64,000 nt of DNA from a virus: the IMG/VR virus record IMGVR_UViG_3300045999_008996, positions 124,001 through 188,000 of that record. One strand, given 5' to 3'. Below are positions 11,043-37,609 of the stretch, piece after piece. The notes below the pieces were generated by a model that saw nothing but the letters and a program-made list of their open reading frames with translations, was not told the origin of the DNA and searched no databases. Position 1 is the stretch's first letter, and each line of letters opens with the position of its first letter. The translations under genes were made by a program, and so were the position numbers.

Positions 11043-12386
11043 TTAGAAAGGTTTTCTACCAAAGCTGTCTCTTACGAGAGTCATACTTGTAAAAGTTTCT
11101 CTTGGTGTAATACGATGACATAAACTTGCTATCATATATATACCACCACTTTTCTTATTATATGTGGCATTCTTCTCAACAGTGAGTCCAGGAAAGTCAC
11201 AATGTACCAAATCACCTGCTCTTAAACTAAAATCACCAGGAATAACTACATTAATCTTAATCAAAAACATCTGGTTATATCTCATAATAGATTGAACCAT
11301 AGTTTTTGGTGCATCATAAATTGGACTAAATGGACTATTTTTCCAATTTTTAAGTTGCTCGTCAAGATTTTTTCCTTTCGGAAGAGTTCCTATATCTAAA
11401 ACGTGATTCATTAACCTTGACACAGGTTTTCTAAACTCTTCAGAAACTGATAGAAGTTCATCTAATCCACCATTTACAATTTTGTCTTTTTGATTTTCAT
11501 CTACAGAATATTCACGAACCTTATAATCCATAGCAAAAAAATCAAAGAAAATACTTCTATTTGCGTAAGTTCCAATAGTTAAATTATTTCCAAGATCAAT
11601 ATCTCTTTCGATATTATAAGATAAAACTTTAGCATCATATTCGCCAGGTTTTGCCTCTGTATTATTATAAATATATTTCTTTTTATATTTTTGATCGAAC
11701 AATGCATCAATAGATCTAAAATTATAACCATCATAATTTTCATAAAAAAGATATCCCGCAGCACCATCTGATTCCCCTACACTTTTTGGAACTGATTTTG
11801 ATGCTAACCAAGTGCAAACATAAAAAGGTTTTCTATCATTACCAATAAAATTATAGTCTATTAATGTGTCGTCCACTTTAACATTTTTTTCAGTTAAAAG
11901 TCCTTTGCCACCAGATAAAGATTCTGTGAGTATTGATTTTACATGATCAGAAATATTTCCTTCGTATCTTTTAACAACTCTACTTTGTTCATTTGCAAAA
12001 TATTCTCTTGGTGAAAAGTCAATGTTGTATAAATCTTTCTGAGTTCCTGGATCAATATCACGAACTCGATTTACATAAAGAGAATTATTTTTTTGAGTTT
12101 TAAATTCTAATTTGTTTGGTTGTACCTGATTATCTTCCAGAATAATATATGCTCTTTCTCCTCCACGAATTGGAAGACCATCAACGATACCATTATTTCC
12201 AATAGAACTATCGGTAAATCCGGTATCAATCACAGTCGTAGACATTGACATGGAGTTGGATAATATATTTTCATAATAACGTAACTCAACAATGCCAGGA
12301 GAAAGATCCACAGAATTCTTACCATCAGAAGACTGTAAAACAAATGCTCGTATATTACTGACTCTTGTTGCTTGATTATCTGACAT
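11043..12386 (-). CDS. gp27: Baseplate hub protein, gp27-like
   Basis: 447 residues. The N-terminus (RVSNIRAFVLQSSDG, GIVELRYYENIL, STTVIDTG) is the first tail-tube-like barrel of the gp27/gpD hub family. The C-terminal part LIKINVVIPGDFSLRAGDLV, then MIASLCHRITP and TSMTLVRDS is the characteristic hub ending. gp27 trimers connect the tube to the gp5 spike. The gene order gp51, tape measure, gp27, gp5 matches the T4-like hub region. Start overlaps the upstream stop by one base. Confidence 0.8.
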   Translation of the reverse strand: MSDNQATRVSNIRAFVLQSSDGKNSVDLSPGIVELRYYENILSNSMSMSTTVIDTGFTDSSIGNNGIVDGLPIRGGERAYIILEDNQVQPNKLEFKTQKNNSLYVNRVRDIDPGTQKDLYNIDFSPREYFANEQSRVVKRYEGNISDHVKSILTESLSGGKGLLTEKNVKVDDTLIDYNFIGNDRKPFYVCTWLASKSVPKSVGESDGAAGYLFYENYDGYNFRSIDALFDQKYKKKYIYNNTEAKPGEYDAKVLSYNIERDIDLGNNLTIGTYANRSIFFDFFAMDYKVREYSVDENQKDKIVNGGLDELLSVSEEFRKPVSRLMNHVLDIGTLPKGKNLDEQLKNWKNSPFSPIYDAPKTMVQSIMRYNQMFLIKINVVIPGDFSLRAGDLVHCDFPGLTVEKNATYNKKSGGIYMIASLCHRITPRETFTSMTLVRDSFGRKPF

Positions 12387-14137
12387 TATCCTTGTTTGTA
12401 TAAGAACCCAATAAGTTGAGTTTGATAGTAACTATTTAATAGTGCTTGTTTTGATACTCCAATAGGAAGCATCCTTGTTCCTCCTCCGCCCATTACTGGC
12501 GCAGAACCTCTGCCAATTGGTATCGGAAGAATTGTAGAAGACGGTGCTCCACCAACAATCTCATAGTCTGCCTGCTGCATAATCTGCGGAACACTTGCAG
12601 ATATTGGTGGTGGTGCTTGTTCTGGTGAGACTTGTGCCGGTGCTGGTGGTTGTAATGATGCTGCTGTTGCTGTTACTGCTGCTTGTTGTGGTGAAGGTAA
12701 TGCTGTTGCTGCTGTTGCTGTTGCTGCTGCTTGTTGTGGTGAAGGTAATGCTGGAGCAGGTGGTGCCTGAGTTTGTGTTGCTACTTCCACTGCTGCTTGT
12801 TGTGCTATACGATCTGCTTGTCTTTGTCTTTGTTGTGGTGTTGTTTGTAATTTAGAACCATAAACAGTTTTTGCTGCTCCAATTCTTCTGGACAATGATC
12901 CTTGTATTTCTGAAGCACTTGCTCTTTCCACTTCATAAGCAAACCCTTTTGTTTTTGATGCAACATCAGGACCATAAGACATTGCTTTCTGAAATTGTGC
13001 TGTTTCATAAGCATTGCCACCTTTCAATTCCCAAACAATATAATCTAATTGAAGATTTAAATCAGTAACTGGTTTTCCTTTTTGCTGTGCGAATTGAATT
13101 AATCTTGATTTTCTTCCATATGCCCACTGCATCAAACCAAAAGCACCACTTTTAGGATTTTCTGCTCCAGTTCTAAAACTAGATTCTGCTGCAATATTAC
13201 CTGTAATAGCAGCTGCTTCTTCTTTACTAAATCCTCTCTGAACTAATCCAGAATAAACTCTATTTGCACTTGTAGTTTCTCCTTCACCTAAAGGAGTTTC
13301 TGGTCCTGAATATCCACCTCCTCCTGGTTGAGGTTGCTCTCCACCACTACCACGAAGACTATTAATAGTATTGTTAATACCCTCAAAAAGATTTTTCAAA
13401 AATGGAATTTTTTTAGCAATCTCATCAATATTTTTTTTCAAATCTTTACTATCAAGATTCTCTGGAGGAACACCAAGTAATTGTCCTATCAACTTTGTTC
13501 CTTCTCCAGTAATCCATTTAAGACCCTCCCAAATAGGACTGAAAAACTTTCCTATTTTTTCAATAAAATCTTTGACAGTTTGAAAAACATTTTTTAAAGT
13601 CTCTATAATCTCTTCAAGATTTTTAAAAATTGCAAGAGCAAGAGATCCAAGCAAAACATTGCCAAAGAATCTCATAAGATTAAACTTATCTCCAGGTGCC
13701 TGTATATTTGGCATCTTGAAAGGTTTTTTCTTTGCTTCCTTTTTTAACTTGTCTTCTCTTTCTTTTTTATCTTCTAACTTAGTCTGCTCTTTTTTATTAG
13801 TCTCTTCTTCTTTCTGAGTTTGATTTCTATTATTCAATACATCAATAATACCTTGAAGTGTCTTACCAACTCTGTTAAAAATATCATCTAACCTACCAGT
13901 CTTTACATTTTTCTTAACCTCAGCAGCAGGTGGAAGTGCTTTTATTTCTGCTGGAGGAAGAAACAGATTAGTTGATATTGTTTTCTTTTTAATTACTGGT
14001 TCTTTTACAACAGCACCTTCATCATCAATCTTTTGAATAGATGATGCTTTCTTTTTCTCAAAGAACTTATCTTTGTCAACCTTTTTTTCTGATGGTAGTA
14101 GTGCCTTTGCGGCAAATCCTGCTAGTGCTGGTAACAT
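12386..14137 (-). CDS. Hub/tape-measure-related protein with tail lysozyme domain
   Basis: 583 residues. A Lys-rich N-terminal coiled coil is followed by a hydrophobic segment with RFFGNVLLGSLALAIFKNL (about 157-175), also seen in the next gene. Residues about 285-430 (SGLVQRGFSKEEAAAITG, NIAAESSFRTG, SGAFGLMQW, LNLQLDYIVWEL) match the phage tail lysozyme family, with Glu of AAES as likely catalytic acid. The C-terminus is Ala/Gln/Pro-rich with a 16-residue tandem repeat. It probably cuts peptidoglycan during infection, replacing the gp5 muramidase. Overlaps both neighbours by one base. Confidence 0.75.
   Translation of the reverse strand: MLPALAGFAAKALLPSEKKVDKDKFFEKKKASSIQKIDDEGAVVKEPVIKKKTISTNLFLPPAEIKALPPAAEVKKNVKTGRLDDIFNRVGKTLQGIIDVLNNRNQTQKEEETNKKEQTKLEDKKEREDKLKKEAKKKPFKMPNIQAPGDKFNLMRFFGNVLLGSLALAIFKNLEEIIETLKNVFQTVKDFIEKIGKFFSPIWEGLKWITGEGTKLIGQLLGVPPENLDSKDLKKNIDEIAKKIPFLKNLFEGINNTINSLRGSGGEQPQPGGGGYSGPETPLGEGETTSANRVYSGLVQRGFSKEEAAAITGNIAAESSFRTGAENPKSGAFGLMQWAYGRKSRLIQFAQQKGKPVTDLNLQLDYIVWELKGGNAYETAQFQKAMSYGPDVASKTKGFAYEVERASASEIQGSLSRRIGAAKTVYGSKLQTTPQQRQRQADRIAQQAAVEVATQTQAPPAPALPSPQQAAATATAATALPSPQQAAVTATAASLQPPAPAQVSPEQAPPPISASVPQIMQQADYEIVGGAPSSTILPIPIGRGSAPVMGGGGTRMLPIGVSKQALLNSYYQTQLIGFLYKQG
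12663..12752. repeat. Tandem 48-bp coding repeat
   Basis: Two 42-base copies, nearly identical and spaced by a 48-base period, encode LPSPQQAA-TATAA twice in the hub lysozyme protein. This is a likely linker of variable length. Confidence 0.75.
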
Positions 14138-16353
14138 TATCCTACAATGTTATAGATTGCTCTAACAACCATAGTGGTTGTGTTATTTGGATCCTCAGAA
14201 GAGAATCTTGGAACTGGTGCTTGATTTGGTGATGTTCCACTTGATACCTGTGGTGTTCCGCCACCAGTTGGTATAGGTATAGGTACAATATTACTTCTAC
14301 CAGTTGGTGAAGGTATTGATGGTGTTGTTGGTGGTGTTTGTGCTACTTGTGCAGTTTCTCCTACAGGTGTATGCATCATACCAGATTTAGATGTAGGTGC
14401 CAGATGCCCAACCCAAACTTTTCCGGATCCAGGAAGAATGCCAGTAACTCCACCTTTACCTCCAGTGTTTCTAACATCTGCTAAAGGAAAAGGAACTTTT
14501 GTTCCTTTTGGAACAAAAATATCAACAGATCTTCCGTCTCCACTATGACCATGCTGAGTTATTCCTATTCTTATTAATTTTTTTATTTCCTCCATAGACA
14601 TTCCAGGAGTAAACTTTTGCCCTTTACTTAATTCAGGTGTGACTCCAGAATCTAATAAACCCTTAACTATAGGAGCAGTATCATTTACAAGATCATTAGC
14701 AGTTCCCGTATCCGTTTGGAAATGACCATGCACAAATCCAGGAGCATTCGAAACATTTCCAGTTTCTCCAAATGTGGCACTGCCAGATCCAACTTGATTA
14801 CCAGCAGGCCCTGTTCCTGGTTGTGCGGCACTTGGAGGAAGTCCTGGCATTAATGAAGTTTGTGGTTGAACACCAGTATTTAAGTTTTCAACCATTTTTT
14901 GAGCATCTTTTACAAATTTGTTTATTTTATCAATGACATCACCTTGAGCACCTTCAGGGCCCATAATATCTTTCATTAACTTATCTTGTTCTTTTTGTGA
15001 TATAGGAATATTTTTTTCATTCTCTGCTATTATTTTTTTAGATATTTCTATATCTTTTAATTTTGCCTTATAGAATGGAGTACCTTCATACCCCCTTAAT
15101 TTTTTAAGTTCCTCTTCATCCTTTTTCAATTTTTGTTTTGTTTGCTCCAACTGCCTTTTCATACTTTGAGTTTTAGTCATTCTAGGCAAAAGTTCTTGCT
15201 CTATTCTATTAAGTTTCTTTTCGTCTTCTTGTATCTTTTTCAAAGATTGTTCTTTTTCTTTTCCGGACATTAACTGTGCTTGTCCTTTTCTGAGAACCAA
15301 ATCTTTTTTTAACTTATAAAGTTCACTCTCAACAGCAGGTGCATCTTCACCTCCGGCAAATTTCTGAATATTTTTGAATAACATTTGTCCACCAATAAAT
15401 GCCCCAAACAAACCAAAAGCAGGAAGTAAAGTGGTTAATCCACCAAGAGCAGTTCCAAGCATACCGATTCCACCAATAACTGCTGTGGTTAGACTAAGTA
15501 AAGTAGGAGCAAGTGGAAGAACAGCAATCGCAAGCAATCCACCAAGTATTAACCCAGCATTTTTTTGTAAGAAGTTAGAAAATCCATCAACTGCTTTTTG
15601 ATTTGCTGGATCTTTTAACCATTTAAACATTCCAAGAACAACAGAACCCAAAAGAACATTCGTAAAGAATCTTTTAATCGCACCAAAGAAATCATCAACA
15701 GGTTTTGTAAGTGCTTTAAGTATTGGTGAAGTTGGTTTTTTTGCTTCTAACTTAGATTCTCTTTCTTTTTTCTTTTTCTTTTGTATTTCTTTTCTATCTT
15801 CTTGTGCTGCTTTTTGTTCTGTTTTACCTTCACTTTGTAATAAACCTCTAATAGTAATCAGAGATTCTAAGATATTTCCTATACCTTTTGATAAGTCTTC
15901 TTGGTCAGTACCACCTGCAAGTTTTTTCTCTTGCTCTGGTGCTTCTTCTGCTACTGCTGGTATGAGTTTCTGTGCCTTTACAATTGCACCAGGAGGAGTT
16001 GGTTGTTTGCGATCTAATACCTTATTAATATTAACCTTCTTAGGTTTAACTTTAAATCTTCCAGTCTTATTCTTTACTCTCTTAAGTTCATTTGTAACTA
16101 ATTCAACACTCTCAGTTGTCATCTGAGAGCCTGGCATTCTTCCTTTAACTGCTGCTTCCTTTAAAAGAGAGGCATATTCTTCATAAGTTAAATCAAAAAC
16201 ATCTTCCAATCCCAAAATTGAAAGAATTTGAGAATCTATATCTTCCTCTACTAAATCCTCTGGTTTTTTAGCAGCAACAACAAGTGCAGAAGAAACTTTT
16301 GAATTATCCTCTGCAATATTAGTGTTGGTACTACTTGGAATTTTATCTTCCAT
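14137..16353 (-). CDS. Tape-measure-like hub protein (gp29 position)
   Basis: 738 residues. Long charged coiled coils (about 175-205 and 345-470), a hydrophobic stretch (GLILGGLLAIAVLPLAPTLL, about 270-325) and the segment RFFTNVLLGSVVLGMFKWL shared with the downstream protein. Near the C-terminus HGHFQTD, ITQHGHSGDGRSVDIFVPKG and VWVGHL resemble M23-type peptidase barrels, though a full Zn-binding set is not secure. Length and location after gp26/51 fit the tail-length determinator. The 11-base overlap with the gp51-like gene indicates coupling. Confidence 0.65.
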   Translation of the reverse strand: MEDKIPSSTNTNIAEDNSKVSSALVVAAKKPEDLVEEDIDSQILSILGLEDVFDLTYEEYASLLKEAAVKGRMPGSQMTTESVELVTNELKRVKNKTGRFKVKPKKVNINKVLDRKQPTPPGAIVKAQKLIPAVAEEAPEQEKKLAGGTDQEDLSKGIGNILESLITIRGLLQSEGKTEQKAAQEDRKEIQKKKKKERESKLEAKKPTSPILKALTKPVDDFFGAIKRFFTNVLLGSVVLGMFKWLKDPANQKAVDGFSNFLQKNAGLILGGLLAIAVLPLAPTLLSLTTAVIGGIGMLGTALGGLTTLLPAFGLFGAFIGGQMLFKNIQKFAGGEDAPAVESELYKLKKDLVLRKGQAQLMSGKEKEQSLKKIQEDEKKLNRIEQELLPRMTKTQSMKRQLEQTKQKLKKDEEELKKLRGYEGTPFYKAKLKDIEISKKIIAENEKNIPISQKEQDKLMKDIMGPEGAQGDVIDKINKFVKDAQKMVENLNTGVQPQTSLMPGLPPSAAQPGTGPAGNQVGSGSATFGETGNVSNAPGFVHGHFQTDTGTANDLVNDTAPIVKGLLDSGVTPELSKGQKFTPGMSMEEIKKLIRIGITQHGHSGDGRSVDIFVPKGTKVPFPLADVRNTGGKGGVTGILPGSGKVWVGHLAPTSKSGMMHTPVGETAQVAQTPPTTPSIPSPTGRSNIVPIPIPTGGGTPQVSSGTSPNQAPVPRFSSEDPNNTTTMVVRAIYNIVG

Positions 16354-16510
16354 TTTGTTGCTGTCTTAGATTCTCTTCTTCAAGATGTTGCTGCAATAAT
16401 CCCACATACACATCTCTTTCCCAAGGAATTAGATTTTCAATCTCAGTTAATGAATATTTATGGAACTGTAGTAAGGCAAAATTTATTTTAAAGTAATTCT
16501 CTAGGTTCAT
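16343..16510 (-). CDS. gp51: gp51-like tail/hub assembly chaperone, 55 aa, also -1 frame extension of gp26
   Basis: Translation starts MNLENYFKINFALLQFHKYS and contains LIPWERDVYVGLLQQHLEEE, matching the conserved C-terminal helix of T4 gp51-type proteins. Twelve bases separate the gp26 stop from this ATG, and no convincing ribosome binding site is present. It lies exactly in the -1 frame of gp26 downstream of a TTTTTTC heptamer, so a gp26-gp51 fusion of about 299 residues can be made. Overlaps the tape-measure gene by 11 bases. Confidence 0.75.
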   Translation of the reverse strand: MNLENYFKINFALLQFHKYSLTEIENLIPWERDVYVGLLQQHLEEENLRQQQNGR

Positions 16511-16521
16511 ATGAACCAGTC

Positions 16522-17241
16522 CTATGCGAAAAAACTTGTCAGACCCTCCAATGCGACAGTGCTCTCAACCTCAGTTTTTGGATTTATAAAAGTAATTTCG
16601 TGAGATAGTTTAGGCATTGTCTCAAAGAACTTTTCAATTTGTTTAAATTGAATACTATTCATTTGCTCTAAGAATTCAATCAATTCTTTTTTAGTCACAT
16701 CAGCAGAAACCCAAACCTCTTCTTCATTATAAATTTTATCAACGCAAGAGGCAATCAATTCAAATGATTGTTCAATTCCTGCACTAGCACCAAAATCAAA
16801 GTTATTTTTGATGAATTGATCAAGCGATGGATACTTCATCTCCATCATCAAGTTATCATCAAGTTTTATTTTATTTGTATGATCTTTTGACTTTTGTACT
16901 TTTATTTCATCAATATCGATTGTCACGGGGACTGAAGTAGTTCCATCATCAGGTGCGATTAGATTAACTTCAATTTTTTCACCAACTGACTTTCCACGAA
17001 TATTTAAAAACAAATATTCAATATCAAAAGTAGGAAGAGACTCTACTTTAATTCCTTTTGTCTGAATACAATTTCTTAAAACTAGTTTAATAGCATTTGA
17101 AATCTCTTTGATATCTTCAGATTCTAGTGCTAAAACTAAAAGTTTTTCTTCTTTTACTAAAAAAGGTCTATATTTTATTTCTTTTCCAGTTGACGGCAAT
17201 TCAAGAGTATAAACAGGAGTTGCAATTGTCGGTAAAGGCAT
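16522..17241 (-). CDS. gp26: gp26-like baseplate hub assembly protein
   Basis: 239 residues. MPLPTIATPVYTLELPSTGK, YRPFLVKEEKLLVLA and AIKLVLRNCI are the typical opening of the T4 base-plate protein family (gp26), a counterpart of lambda gpG-type tail chaperones. The last sense codons AGT TTT TTC form a -1 slippery site just before GCA TAG. The late element GATAAATA lies 30 bases upstream, making it the first gene of the hub operon. Confidence 0.8.
   Translation of the reverse strand: MPLPTIATPVYTLELPSTGKEIKYRPFLVKEEKLLVLALESEDIKEISNAIKLVLRNCIQTKGIKVESLPTFDIEYLFLNIRGKSVGEKIEVNLIAPDDGTTSVPVTIDIDEIKVQKSKDHTNKIKLDDNLMMEMKYPSLDQFIKNNFDFGASAGIEQSFELIASCVDKIYNEEEVWVSADVTKKELIEFLEQMNSIQFKQIEKFFETMPKLSHEITFINPKTEVESTVALEGLTSFFA
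16528..16534 (-). promoter_or_regulatory. -1 programmed frameshift site T TTT TTC in gp26
   Basis: Zero-frame codons AG(T TTT TTC) GCA TAG give an X XXY YYZ heptamer two codons before the gp26 stop. The -1 frame reads CGC ATA GGA CTG GTT CAT ATG and continues in frame into gp51. Inference from sequence; T TTT TTC is a known slippery type. Confidence 0.6.
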
Positions 17242-17270: not shown

Positions 17271-17278
17271 TATTTATC
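17271..17278 (-). promoter_or_regulatory. Late promoter element GATAAATA
   Basis: 30 bases before the gp26 ATG, overlapping the stop region of the gp54-like gene. Expected to start the 11-kb hub operon. Confidence 0.6.
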
Positions 17279-18140
17279 AAGCAAAATCACGACTGAAATT
17301 GGTTGCATCTTGAGATCTTTGTCCAGGGCCTTGTCTTTGAGTTCCTGGAGTAACTCCACGAATAATACCATTATTATAATACTCGTTTGTAATTGTTCTT
17401 GTGAGTTTATTGACATCAAAGAATGGAGAGTTATCAAATAAGTTTGGATTTTTGTATAGATCAATATTAGGTTGAAGCGTTTGTATGTTTTGTACAGAAG
17501 ATGTTAATGTGGAAGATCTATTTCTTTTCATAACATATCTAATGAATGAAAAAGAAACATTACATTTTAAAAGTTGACTTTGTTCATATGAAACTGCCAT
17601 TGAATTAATACTAATTGGAAATCCATAAACAAAAGTATAATCTAAAGTTGTTTGATTTTTTGGAACGTGATGATCTCTTTCAAATTTTGTTAGATAAAAA
17701 TTTACTTTATAGTCATTTGCATATGCCATTCTGTGATGAACATATGGACTTTCAAACTGAGTCCTTGTAAAAACATCACCTACTCCAGTAATATAATCAA
17801 TCCAAGTTTCAAAAAATTCAACAACTTTATAATTTCTATCTACATAAAAAGTCATATCAGCAGTCTCATCATATAATCTCCTATAAACCATTTTTTCACT
17901 CACACCATGATAGTCATTTGTTGCCTCGTGAGTTGCGAGTGCAGATCCAGGTAAATTTGCTTCTGAGCATAGTAAAGAAATATTGTCTACATCAAAAGAA
18001 GTAATTCCTCTTTGAGAAGCAAAAGATGATACGTCCGGAGGAACAGGTATTGTTAATCGATATAATGACGTTTGTGCAATAGTCAGTAATCTAGATTTAA
18101 CGTCACTTACTGTAATTCTATCTGGACGGATACCTGCCAT
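17277..18140 (-). CDS. gp54: Tail-tube-fold protein, gp54-like baseplate tube initiator
   Basis: 287 residues. YRLTIPVPPDV, LLCSEANLPGSALATHE, MVYRRLYDETADMTFYVD and VVEFFETWIDYITG are the strand-helix pattern of the T4 gp19/gp54 tube family, with VNFYLTKFERD and YTFVYGFPISINSM closing the barrel. The extra C-terminal 100 residues and the position beside gp26, gp48 and gp53 favour gp54 over the main tail tube. It is transcribed divergently from gp4; the plus-strand late promoter for gp4 lies two bases beyond its start. Confidence 0.7.
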   Translation of the reverse strand: MAGIRPDRITVSDVKSRLLTIAQTSLYRLTIPVPPDVSSFASQRGITSFDVDNISLLCSEANLPGSALATHEATNDYHGVSEKMVYRRLYDETADMTFYVDRNYKVVEFFETWIDYITGVGDVFTRTQFESPYVHHRMAYANDYKVNFYLTKFERDHHVPKNQTTLDYTFVYGFPISINSMAVSYEQSQLLKCNVSFSFIRYVMKRNRSSTLTSSVQNIQTLQPNIDLYKNPNLFDNSPFFDVNKLTRTITNEYYNNGIIRGVTPGTQRQGPGQRSQDATNFSRDFA

Positions 18141-27574: not shown

Positions 27575-27787
27575 TTACAGTGGATTCTCCTCCGCTTCCT
27601 TAATTAATGAACTCACAATATCTTCTGTGCCGTCCATCGTTTTGATAGCATACAGAGATGATTTTTGATATTTTTTAATTTTTTTATATTGTTTAATAAC
27701 TTGATCAATATTATCCAAATCAATTTGGATATTTAGATCCTTACCAGTTCTTCCTTGGTTTGGATCTCCACCAAATCCTGCACTCAT
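27575..27787 (-). CDS. Hypothetical protein, 70 aa
   Basis: MSAGFGGDPNQGRTGKDLNI, a DLDNIDQVIKQYKKIKKY helix and a short acidic tail. ATGA overlap with the upstream gene and one base before speD. Function unknown; possibly tied to speD expression. Confidence 0.65.
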   Translation of the reverse strand: MSAGFGGDPNQGRTGKDLNIQIDLDNIDQVIKQYKKIKKYQKSSLYAIKTMDGTEDIVSSLIKEAEENPL

Positions 27788-28092
27788 TTTCTTTTCTTTT
27801 TTTCAGGTTGTTTATATCCCCAAAGTTTTGGATTAGTTCTACCATATCCAAAATCAATCTTTTGAACTGCACCTGGACCATACTTGTCATAATACATATC
27901 AAAAAGATTGACTCGCTTGGAGCAACGAGTTAGATCAACATGTTCTTCACCATCTACTACATACCAAATTAAATATGCATCATTAGGAAGTGAAGAATCT
28001 TTTGCTTTTTCTACAGTAGTTTTTTCAAAAAGAATTTCACATCCATACTCATGTGGCAGAACTTTATTGATTTTAGATTTATTTTCCGCCAT
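27784..28092 (-). CDS. Hypothetical protein, 102 aa
   Basis: Start set at MAENKSKINKVLPHEYG (ATG 28090-28092), 11 bases after GGAG; starts at 28122 or 28137 are possible. Contains YLIWYVVDGEEHVDLTRC and FDMYYDKYGPGAVQKIDFGY, ending in a Lys-rich tail. Aromatic and conserved-looking, without a family I can name. Confidence 0.65.
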   Translation of the reverse strand: MAENKSKINKVLPHEYGCEILFEKTTVEKAKDSSLPNDAYLIWYVVDGEEHVDLTRCSKRVNLFDMYYDKYGPGAVQKIDFGYGRTNPKLWGYKQPEKKKRK

Positions 28093-28118
28093 TTTCTTTT
28101 TTTCTCCTACTACTGCTG

Positions 28119-28688
28119 TCATGAACGACCTCCCCATTGAATGTCAGGATAAGACTCTTTGACATTTTCAAAAGATATTTTGTATTTATCTGCAAGTTTT
28201 TTATCTTTTGTGAGAATTAATACTTCTGCTTCTTTTGGATGAAGACCTCTTAGAAGATTAATAAACATCATTTCTCTGCGAATAGATGTAAGAGAATCGT
28301 TACCACCTTTCACATAATGATAAAGATTCTGCCACTCTTTGCGAAGAGATGTTCTTCCTCTTCCATCAAGATCTTGACCGGTTGCTAGTTCTCCACCATA
28401 TGCTTCCTTCTTCAAATTCTCCGAAAGAGTCCCAGAATATACAGATTGTTCGTCAGCATTTCCATAAGGAACTTCTCCATCAGGAAGAAGAGAAACTACA
28501 CTCTCATCAAAGTTCCAAATAAAAACTGCTTTTAGAGAGTCGTGTTCATATGTCTTAAGAACTTCTACCTTCTTTGCATTGCTTCTTTGCTTTGATGCAA
28601 GTTCTAGAATTTCGAATACAAAAGGATTCGTTGGAAGAGTTTCAATCGGTTTTTCAGTCGTTGTCCTCTTCGTCTTCGTCGTAGTCAT
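28119..28688 (-). CDS. Conserved cyanophage protein, DUF6433-like
   Basis: 189 residues from MTTTKTKRTTTEKPIETLPT. NPFVFEILELASKQRSNAKK, LKAVFIWNFDESVVSLLPDG, EWQNLYHYVKGGNDSLTSIR, MMFINLLRGLHPKEAEVLIL form an alpha-helical protein repeatedly seen in T4-like marine phages (I recall it as DUF6433; not searched). Overlaps the small membrane gene upstream by 35 bases. Confidence 0.65.
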   Translation of the reverse strand: MTTTKTKRTTTEKPIETLPTNPFVFEILELASKQRSNAKKVEVLKTYEHDSLKAVFIWNFDESVVSLLPDGEVPYGNADEQSVYSGTLSENLKKEAYGGELATGQDLDGRGRTSLRKEWQNLYHYVKGGNDSLTSIRREMMFINLLRGLHPKEAEVLILTKDKKLADKYKISFENVKESYPDIQWGGRS

Positions 28689-36422: not shown

Positions 36423-36881
36423 TTATGAAAACCAAAGTTTACCTTCTGCAACTCTTCTTCTCTTCAATCCCGCTTCCACACTTGTTCCTGGGTTATGATA
36501 AAGATATAAAGCATCAGGTACCTTAGTCCATTCTTTATTTTTAAGAACTCTGGTTATGGTATTAAAATTGGAAGACCCGTAAAAACCAGCACCAAGATTA
36601 TAAGCAAAAGAAAGAAGTGCTCCTTTTTGATTTTCATTCATTTCACTCCAGTAAGGTATTCTTTGTAGTGATGGCAAAAATCTATTCTTTAAATCAAATT
36701 CAAGTAGAGTGTCTGCATACTTTTGAGTAATCACTCTACCTATTTTGAAGGGTGTCCCATCAAAGTCTTTAGTGCTTCCCCAACCAATTGTAATCGGCGG
36801 TCCTTTTGTTAAAGGATCTGGATAAGCATTTAAATGACATCCTTCAAACTCTTTGATTAAATTAATGCCAACCAACGGCAC
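36423..36881 (-). CDS. T4-type lysozyme (GH24), probably made as a frameshift fusion
   Basis: 152 residues if started at GTG 36879-36881. GINLIKEFEGCHLNAYPDP (catalytic Glu in FEG), ITIGWGSTKD, and QKGALLSFAYNLGAGFYGSS identify the endolysin/GH24 muramidase family. There is no ATG and no SD; the frame is open from just after the slippery site A AAA AAG of the peptidase gene. Product may therefore be only the C-terminal domain of a peptidase-lysozyme polyprotein. Confidence 0.85.
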   Translation of the reverse strand: MPLVGINLIKEFEGCHLNAYPDPLTKGPPITIGWGSTKDFDGTPFKIGRVITQKYADTLLEFDLKNRFLPSLQRIPYWSEMNENQKGALLSFAYNLGAGFYGSSNFNTITRVLKNKEWTKVPDALYLYHNPGTSVEAGLKRRRVAEGKLWFS

Positions 36882-36923
36882 TTCATTGGCATTATTAATG
36901 TTAGTTGGCGCTTCTACTTTTTT
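36867..36923 (-). promoter_or_regulatory. -1 programmed frameshift signal: A AAA AAG plus stem-loop
   Basis: Slippery heptamer at 36917-36923 (zero frame GCA AAA AAG TAG). A 7-base spacer (36910-36916) contains the stop, followed by a 10-bp stem (36900-36909 with 36867-36876, one G-U pair, 23-base loop). The -1 frame reads GTA GAA GCG CCA and leads without stop into the lysozyme. Confidence 0.75.
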
Positions 36924-37609
36924 GCATCAAAAATACGACCCCAACCAGTCTTATCTCTTCCTTTTTCTAACCAACGATAAGTAAGGTCTGACTTTTTATA
37001 GACTGAACCTTTACCATTCGTAACTGGTCCAGTGTAACCATCGTTTAGAGAACCATAAGGATCGTTAACAACGTAGTCCTCACCTTTCTTTCCAATCACT
37101 ACAACCATGTGCCCGCCAGTAGGATTAGATAAAGAGCCGCGGTGCAGGATACCAATAACGACAGGTCTCCCAGCAGATAACTCACGATCAAGATCAACAA
37201 ACCCAAGATTGTAACTAAAGCGTGACTTAATTCCATAATTTTCCAGAACTTTTGTCTGGACGGTGTGATCAGTTGAATCACCAATCGCAAAAACTTTTTG
37301 GACATAGGCATCATCGCCTTTTGCTCCTTGAAGCGTACCTGGTTTGAAATACTCTAGGCACATCGCACAAGCAGATGAGTTGCAAGTTCTTTGTGCATCT
37401 CTATAATTATCTGTTTGTGGATAAAAAGGAACAGGAAGAACTCCAGGAACAGTTGGTTTTGTTCTATAAATTCTAACCCAATTAGAAGTGTCTTCAAGCA
37501 AATCTGGGTTCTTACTTACAAGATCAACCTCAAATTGTTCTACAGCAGCAACATGCTTTGGATTGTTCTCATCATAATGTTTAAAAAAGTTATGAAGATC
37601 TACTCTCAT
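36914..37609 (-). CDS. C39-like cysteine peptidase
   Basis: 231 residues. Catalytic Cys in RTCNSSACAMCLEYF, His in TGGHMVVVIGKKG and Asp in YVVNDPYGS form the papain-like triad of the C39-like peptidase family. N-terminal 55 residues are a separate helical part. Likely cleaves peptide crosslinks of peptidoglycan during lysis or entry. Late promoter upstream. The last two Lys codons are the -1 slippery site. Confidence 0.8.
   Translation of the reverse strand: MRVDLHNFFKHYDENNPKHVAAVEQFEVDLVSKNPDLLEDTSNWVRIYRTKPTVPGVLPVPFYPQTDNYRDAQRTCNSSACAMCLEYFKPGTLQGAKGDDAYVQKVFAIGDSTDHTVQTKVLENYGIKSRFSYNLGFVDLDRELSAGRPVVIGILHRGSLSNPTGGHMVVVIGKKGEDYVVNDPYGSLNDGYTGPVTNGKGSVYKKSDLTYRWLEKGRDKTGWGRIFDAKK

Follow-up and report, generated by a model that had tools for sequence, protein, structure and literature searches.

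The gp26-gp51 locus in the window (the whole 64,000-nucleotide stretch of DNA analyzed here) reads, from its sequence and its relatives, as a T4-type (Kyanoviridae-like) cyanophage gene for the tail assembly chaperone that would use −1 frameshifting, a reading to which we assign a probability of roughly 0.92. As in phage lambda, one gene of this marine T4-type virus very probably yields a tail-building helper in two lengths. The window comes from a virus record of 222,563 bases that may be incomplete.

Layout of the locus and its predicted products

By profiles and position, the chaperone gene sits between the tail-tube and tape-measure genes (Table 1), and the PF12322 profile match to its gp26 part extends over positions 2-219 of 219. 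The gp26 gene ends in GAG GGT CTG ACA AGT TTT TTC GCA TAG, and the heptamer T_TTT_TTC within it fits X_XXY_YYZ in the gp26 frame, as the sequence-only reading had claimed. Read at the slip in the −1 frame, the sequence becomes FF-RIGLVHMNLENYF... and meets no stop; after a −1 slip the frame continues as RIGLVHMNLENYFKINFALLQFHKYSLTEIENLIPWERDVYVGLLQQHLEEENLRQQQNGR to 16343 for a fusion of 299 aa, and the ATG of the 55-aa gp51-like ORF shares this phase, again as claimed. The tape-measure-like gene expected to follow was found as well, the 738-aa ORF qualifying by position and the 583-aa ORF by its phrog_9570 profile; the former, which lies between gp51 and the latter, had no direct tape-measure match. 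As an observation in its own right, 12386-16353 on the minus strand holds two successive tape-measure-like proteins, each with a wall-hydrolase-like part (endolysin-like phrog_34252 in one, Phage_lysozyme2 in the other).

Table 1. Features of the chaperone locus and its neighbors (positions in the window)
Feature	Position	Strand	Evidence or remark
gp26 / TAC-N ORF, 239 aa	17241..16522	minus	PF12322 T4_baseplate E 1.6e-71; phrog_150 E 1.5e-76
Slippery heptamer T_TTT_TTC	16534..16528	minus	gp26 frame, one sense codon ahead of stop
TAG stop, unshifted short product	16524..16522	minus	
−1-frame tail, 61 aa + stop, TAC-C / "T" part	16343..16528	minus	would be added by the shift
gp51-like ORF as would be annotated, 55 aa	16510..16343	minus	ATG at 16510; phrog_634 E 6.2e-25
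SD-like GGAGGG, putative stimulator	16544..16549	minus	9 nt upstream of heptamer
Hairpin GGTTC-ATAT-GAACC, putative stimulator	16504..16517	minus	10 nt after heptamer; contains gp51 ATG
Tail-tube-like gene, directly upstream of gp26	17277..18140	minus	PF23849 E 1.5e-15; phrog_45 E 2.4e-34
738-aa ORF, directly downstream	14137..16353	minus	located where a tape measure is expected; has hydrophobic stretches and an endolysin-like C-terminal part (phrog_34252)
583-aa ORF, tape-measure-like	12386..14137	minus	phrog_9570 tape measure E 6.9e-25; Phage_lysozyme2 PF18013 E 7.7e-27

We infer that most ribosomes stop at the TAG and release gp26 (TAC-N, the G equivalent), and that the remaining fraction would slip by −1 on T_TTT_TTC to yield the gp26-gp51 fusion (TAC-NC, the GT equivalent). 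The SD-like AGGG upstream would pair with 16S rRNA, probably aiding the slip, and the hairpin downstream probably aids it in this lineage. By analogy with lambda, the tape-measure protein would be coated by the short form, and tail-tube subunits would be recruited through the extra tail that the long form carries.

The predicted fold of gp26 is consistent with such a role. An AlphaFold2 model (46 sequences, mean pLDDT 84) gave no match with an E of <0.001 in Foldseek alone; in a second-look (VIA) comparison, the top three matches of residues 1-96 were HK97 TAC 2ob9 (Z of 7.9 over 84 residues, 4.0 Å), 3fgx (7.8), and YqbN 3klu (7.2), with the next match at 4.9; Z values just below 8, as in these three, may reflect chance resemblance. 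We regard the modeled resemblance to the HK97 tail assembly chaperone as supportive rather than as proof; taken together with the position between tube and tape-measure genes, it points to a G/GT-type (TAC-N/TAC-NC) locus that would use −1 frameshifting. A model of the T4-type long form displayed a similar order of elements and a helical tail, and when this T4 long form was put through the second-look structure search, no TAC was among its matches. Sequence searches for a solved homologue returned chance kinase matches only, and no useful model was found in NCBIfam.

Sites of this kind were few in the window. Of the 81 mechanical ORFs that reach 100 aa or more, 7 had an in-frame X_XXY_YYZ within the last 12 codons, and 3 of those 7 had a −1 extension of at least 40 aa; gp26 alone was T_TTT_TTY, the other two with long extensions being A_AAA_AAG, and the remaining four heptamers lacked such extensions. 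Two ORFs elsewhere on the minus strand deserve mention separately. At 36423-37609, a C39-like peptidase ORF (37609..36914, PF13529) ends with an in-frame A_AAA_AAG, and its −1 frame runs stop-free into a phage lysozyme (PF00959, 36881..36423); the same two functions are separate overlapping genes in S-SRM01 and are fused in the opposite order in S-CREM1, and the pair in the window is possibly a second frameshift fusion or a plain overlap. At 27575-28137, the stop of a 117-aa ORF is preceded, at 16 nt, by an in-frame A_AAA_AAG, from which about 69 aa can be read in the −1 frame into the next small ORF.

Conservation of the heptamer and codon choice at the slip

Relatives were gathered through gp26 protein similarity and not through the slip site, which gave a broad set of 242 distinct loci from cyanophages and from the pf16-, Ochrobactrum-, KVP40-, and other T4-type groups. 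Heptamer and open −1 frame were kept in all close relatives (80/80). Across the broad set, conservation of heptamer and phase, proposed earlier as the check, was borne out: an in-frame T_TTT_TTY lay 7 to 31 nt before the gp26 stop in 241 of 242 distinct loci, the −1 frame was open from the slip in every heptamer locus (241/241), and it reached 53-67 aa beyond the gp26 stop in all complete cases but one. Aeromonas 65.2 and Nitratidesulfovibrio SRB7757, added later, agreed in both respects. A broken gene or a sequencing error was ruled out, as the arrangement recurs in hundreds of independent contigs, and a chance heptamer was ruled out by conservation combined with codon statistics.

Some loci were recorded separately. 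In one of the 80 close relatives, an IMG/VR contig (L050, 2341 onward), the tail is interrupted about 14 residues in by a short repeat, probably an artefact of assembly. A related group, consisting of Ackermannviridae-type Vibrio phages together with Pseudomonas phage Cygsa01 (L094, L286, L288, and L289), has a −1 overlap without the canonical heptamer, which weighs against the frameshift reading; here CTT, GTT, or ATT precedes TTT or TTC, in part with a TAATG stop-start overlap. A scan of viral contigs for Atu_ph04-like gp26 found none.

Phe237-Phe238 was invariant in the protein alignment, and the codons were therefore tested. An explanation of the motif as a by-product of this gp26-terminal Phe-Phe in AT-rich genomes, with no role in decoding, could appeal to that invariance and to a background TTT share of 69%; the codons nevertheless make it exceedingly unlikely. 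At the slip the pair was TTT_TTC in 208 loci and TTT_TTT in 33, with TTC never first (241/241 TTT_TTY), whereas Phe-Phe pairs elsewhere in the same genes were mostly TTC_TTT (169, against 76 TTT_TTT, 9 TTC_TTC, and 5 TTT_TTC) and began with TTT in 81/259, counts that share ancestry and for which we therefore claim no single p-value. Even GC-rich phages kept TTT TTY at the slip (V45v66, with 0/9 Phe codons TTT, and pf16, with 1/14), and T4-type short gp26 genes, 9/9 of which lack the heptamer, had Phe-Phe at the homologous place in 6 of 9 cases and wrote it TTC TTT in all 6. Moreover, the −1 frame was always open and encodes a conserved domain. The codon preceding the slip always ended in T (AGT, TCT, GAT, AAT, GCT, GGT, or ACT). 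Codon choice of this kind shows that the nucleotides at the slip, beyond the Phe-Phe residues, are under selection. A per-codon profile revealed no extended synonymous constraint near the site outside the slip codons; the SD-like element was visible only when its two codons were read jointly and not in this profile.

Candidate stimulators and starts for gp51

Upstream of the slip, the Glu-Gly codons at positions 4-5 before it carried AGGG (GAG GGN or GAA GGG) in 103/110 loci of a thinned set, against an expectation of 36% from codon use and 17/60 for Glu-Gly pairs elsewhere; the excess persisted on thinning to 25% divergence (28/33) and to 35% (11/14). The element lies 9-10 nt upstream of the heptamer, which is the known spacing of SD stimulators of −1 frameshifting, e.g., that of dnaX, and in the window it ends 9 nt before. 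Judged by these codon counts, the SD-like AGGG is under selection, and both it and the downstream fold are putative stimulators. Downstream, 50-nt segments starting 6-12 nt past the first base of the heptamer had a mean fold z of about −1.5 versus shuffles, compared with 0.1 to −0.6 elsewhere in the gene. In near relatives a hairpin of 5 bp, showing some compensatory changes, follows the heptamer at 10 nt, and 69% of cells were paired in this lineage hairpin versus 15-48% when it was slid. The hairpin was not conserved in distant relatives, other lineages having other hairpins; a downstream RNA structure common to all relatives was rejected, RNAalifold on an ungapped alignment having given none. 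Bacterial −1 signals of the dnaX type likewise combine a downstream hairpin with an SD-like element that precedes the heptamer by about 10 nt, but the heptamer there is A-rich and that of the window T-rich, and the hairpin of the window is small and lineage-specific. As far as could be checked in the literature, these stimulator observations are new.

The six or seven consecutive T residues of the slip could in principle also serve RNA polymerase, slippage on the T6 run producing mRNAs with one extra base that encode the long form. We consider this highly improbable: the register of the run relative to the reading frame is fixed, its length stays at 6-7, and a selected SD-like element at ribosome spacing indicates that the ribosome is what slips. 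It also counts against this explanation that the runs in known cases of transcriptional slippage are usually longer.

Another explanation would make gp51 a separate small protein, translated either from a start codon of its own or by ribosomes that re-initiate once gp26 has ended, and the overlap an ordinary one of a compact operon. In the window this has some footing. The claim that gp51 lacks a good SD was mistaken, in that its ATG is preceded by a moderate SD-like AGGA (16523..16520) at 9 nt spacing, so that separate initiation is possible there; public records annotate gp51 as its own gene, and the stop-start overlap of the noncanonical Vibrio group would suit such a mechanism. Among relatives, however, the AGGA was not conserved. 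Of 230 intact distinct loci, 29 had no ATG, GTG, or TTG in the tail leaving at least 45 aa, 161 had such a start without a preceding 4-nt SD-like core, and 40, the window included, had both. The sequence-only reading had named expression of gp51 only from its own ATG as what would refute frameshifting; this was not upheld, as many relatives have lost that ATG. With about 33 nt between them, the conserved SD-like element is too distant to serve the gp51 ATG, and it fits the spacing of the slip site; the heptamer is conserved at the nucleotide level; and T4 carries both parts as one protein. We therefore rate a separate gp51 as unlikely, if the least so of the explanations other than −1 frameshifting. 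In S-SSM4, ACG-2014d, and DSL-LC03, the −1 frame is intact and gp51 is unannotated.

Relation to T4 and other phages

T4 genes 26 and 51 are divergent neighbors whose products each match PF12322 over its full length, and T4 gp51 has an extra tail equivalent to the −1 ORF of the window (phrog_634 in both). In the alignment, T4 gp51 is continuous across the junction against FFRIGLVHMNLENYFKINFALLQFHKYSLTEIENLIPWERD, its tail aligning residue by residue so that it corresponds to the whole gp26-gp51 fusion, and T4 gp26 ends just past the junction. T4 has two divergent genes without a slip site, whereas the window has one single-copy gene with it; only one PF12322 gene was present in the possibly incomplete 222,563-base record, in contrast to the short and long pair of T4. 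The proposal that T4-type gp26 and gp51 are the equivalents of G and GT holds for the type of locus and needs amending for the parts, as cyanophage gp51 alone is the "T" tail and the GT equivalent is the gp26-gp51 fusion. It fails for T4 itself as a frameshifter, in which two separate genes encode the short form, gp26, and the full-length long one, gp51. As in lambda G/GT, the window has a short protein and a predicted −1-shifted long form between tail-tube and tape-measure genes; unlike in lambda, the slip sequence is T_TTT_TTC and a conserved SD-like element lies upstream.

KVP40-type vibriophages (Schizotequatrovirus), pf16, Ochrobactrum phage OC, Agrobacterium Atu_ph04, and Aeromonas 65.2 have the in-frame T_TTT_TTY and the open −1 tail, as does the window, although their gp26 proteins are only about 25-37% identical to that of the window, several contain zinc-ribbon-like cysteines that the window lacks, and the SD-like element is weaker or absent in some. 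In a tree whose rooting was not established, the long copies formed one clade (100/99), the short copies grouped weakly (62/13), and the frameshift-type copies lay apart. We give about even odds to the idea that the ancestor of T4-type phages had one recoded gene for the chaperone, equipped with its own dedicated SD-like stimulator, and that the T4 branch swapped recoding for gene duplication, one copy being frozen as an in-frame long form and the other as a short form. If true, the exchange of recoding for paralogues could here be read directly from the genomes, and tandem long-short loci, such as that of Klebsiella phage CP-p-KP-21068, would represent another arrangement of the pair.

Part of this has precedents. 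Atkins et al. (2016) described G-T frameshifting as conserved in long-tailed phages "except T4" (PMC5009743), a statement that is valid for T4 proper and, on the reading favored here, would not be for its abundant marine relatives. Sullivan et al. (2010) recorded the short cyanophage gp51 without explanation, remarking that gp51 of cyanophages and marine vibriophages was some 200 residues too short (PMC3037559); it would be short because the missing residues are gp26 itself. That T4 gp26/gp51 are chaperones is already in the literature: as cited in PMC10885494 and PMC12846349, these T4-like tail assembly chaperones were identified by Vladimirov, Gautam and Davidson (2022), in a paper whose title argues that the mechanism is not frameshifting. 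PRFect (PMC10885494) attributes to it a short gene and a long fusion gene in some T4-likes, and the Adele paper (PMC12846349) credits it with poly-T slip signals in T4-like TAC-N genes; going by these citing accounts, the cyanophage frameshift case itself is possibly already in print. Many public cyanophage genomes list gp51 separately or miss it, and a joined CDS is warranted. The T4-type phages would also offer a clean comparative system for the role of the short-to-long ratio, because one branch would set the two proteins through recoding and the other through a pair of genes.

Two further observations concern the wider family. The zinc-ribbon-like cysteines (CPKCG) of T4 gp26 and of the vibriophage relatives are replaced by NPKT in the aligned cyanophage gp26 proteins, that of the window included. 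In Klebsiella phage CP-p-KP-21068 (L290:2001-3292), the long and short chaperone genes follow each other on the same strand, in tandem, whereas those of T4 are divergent.
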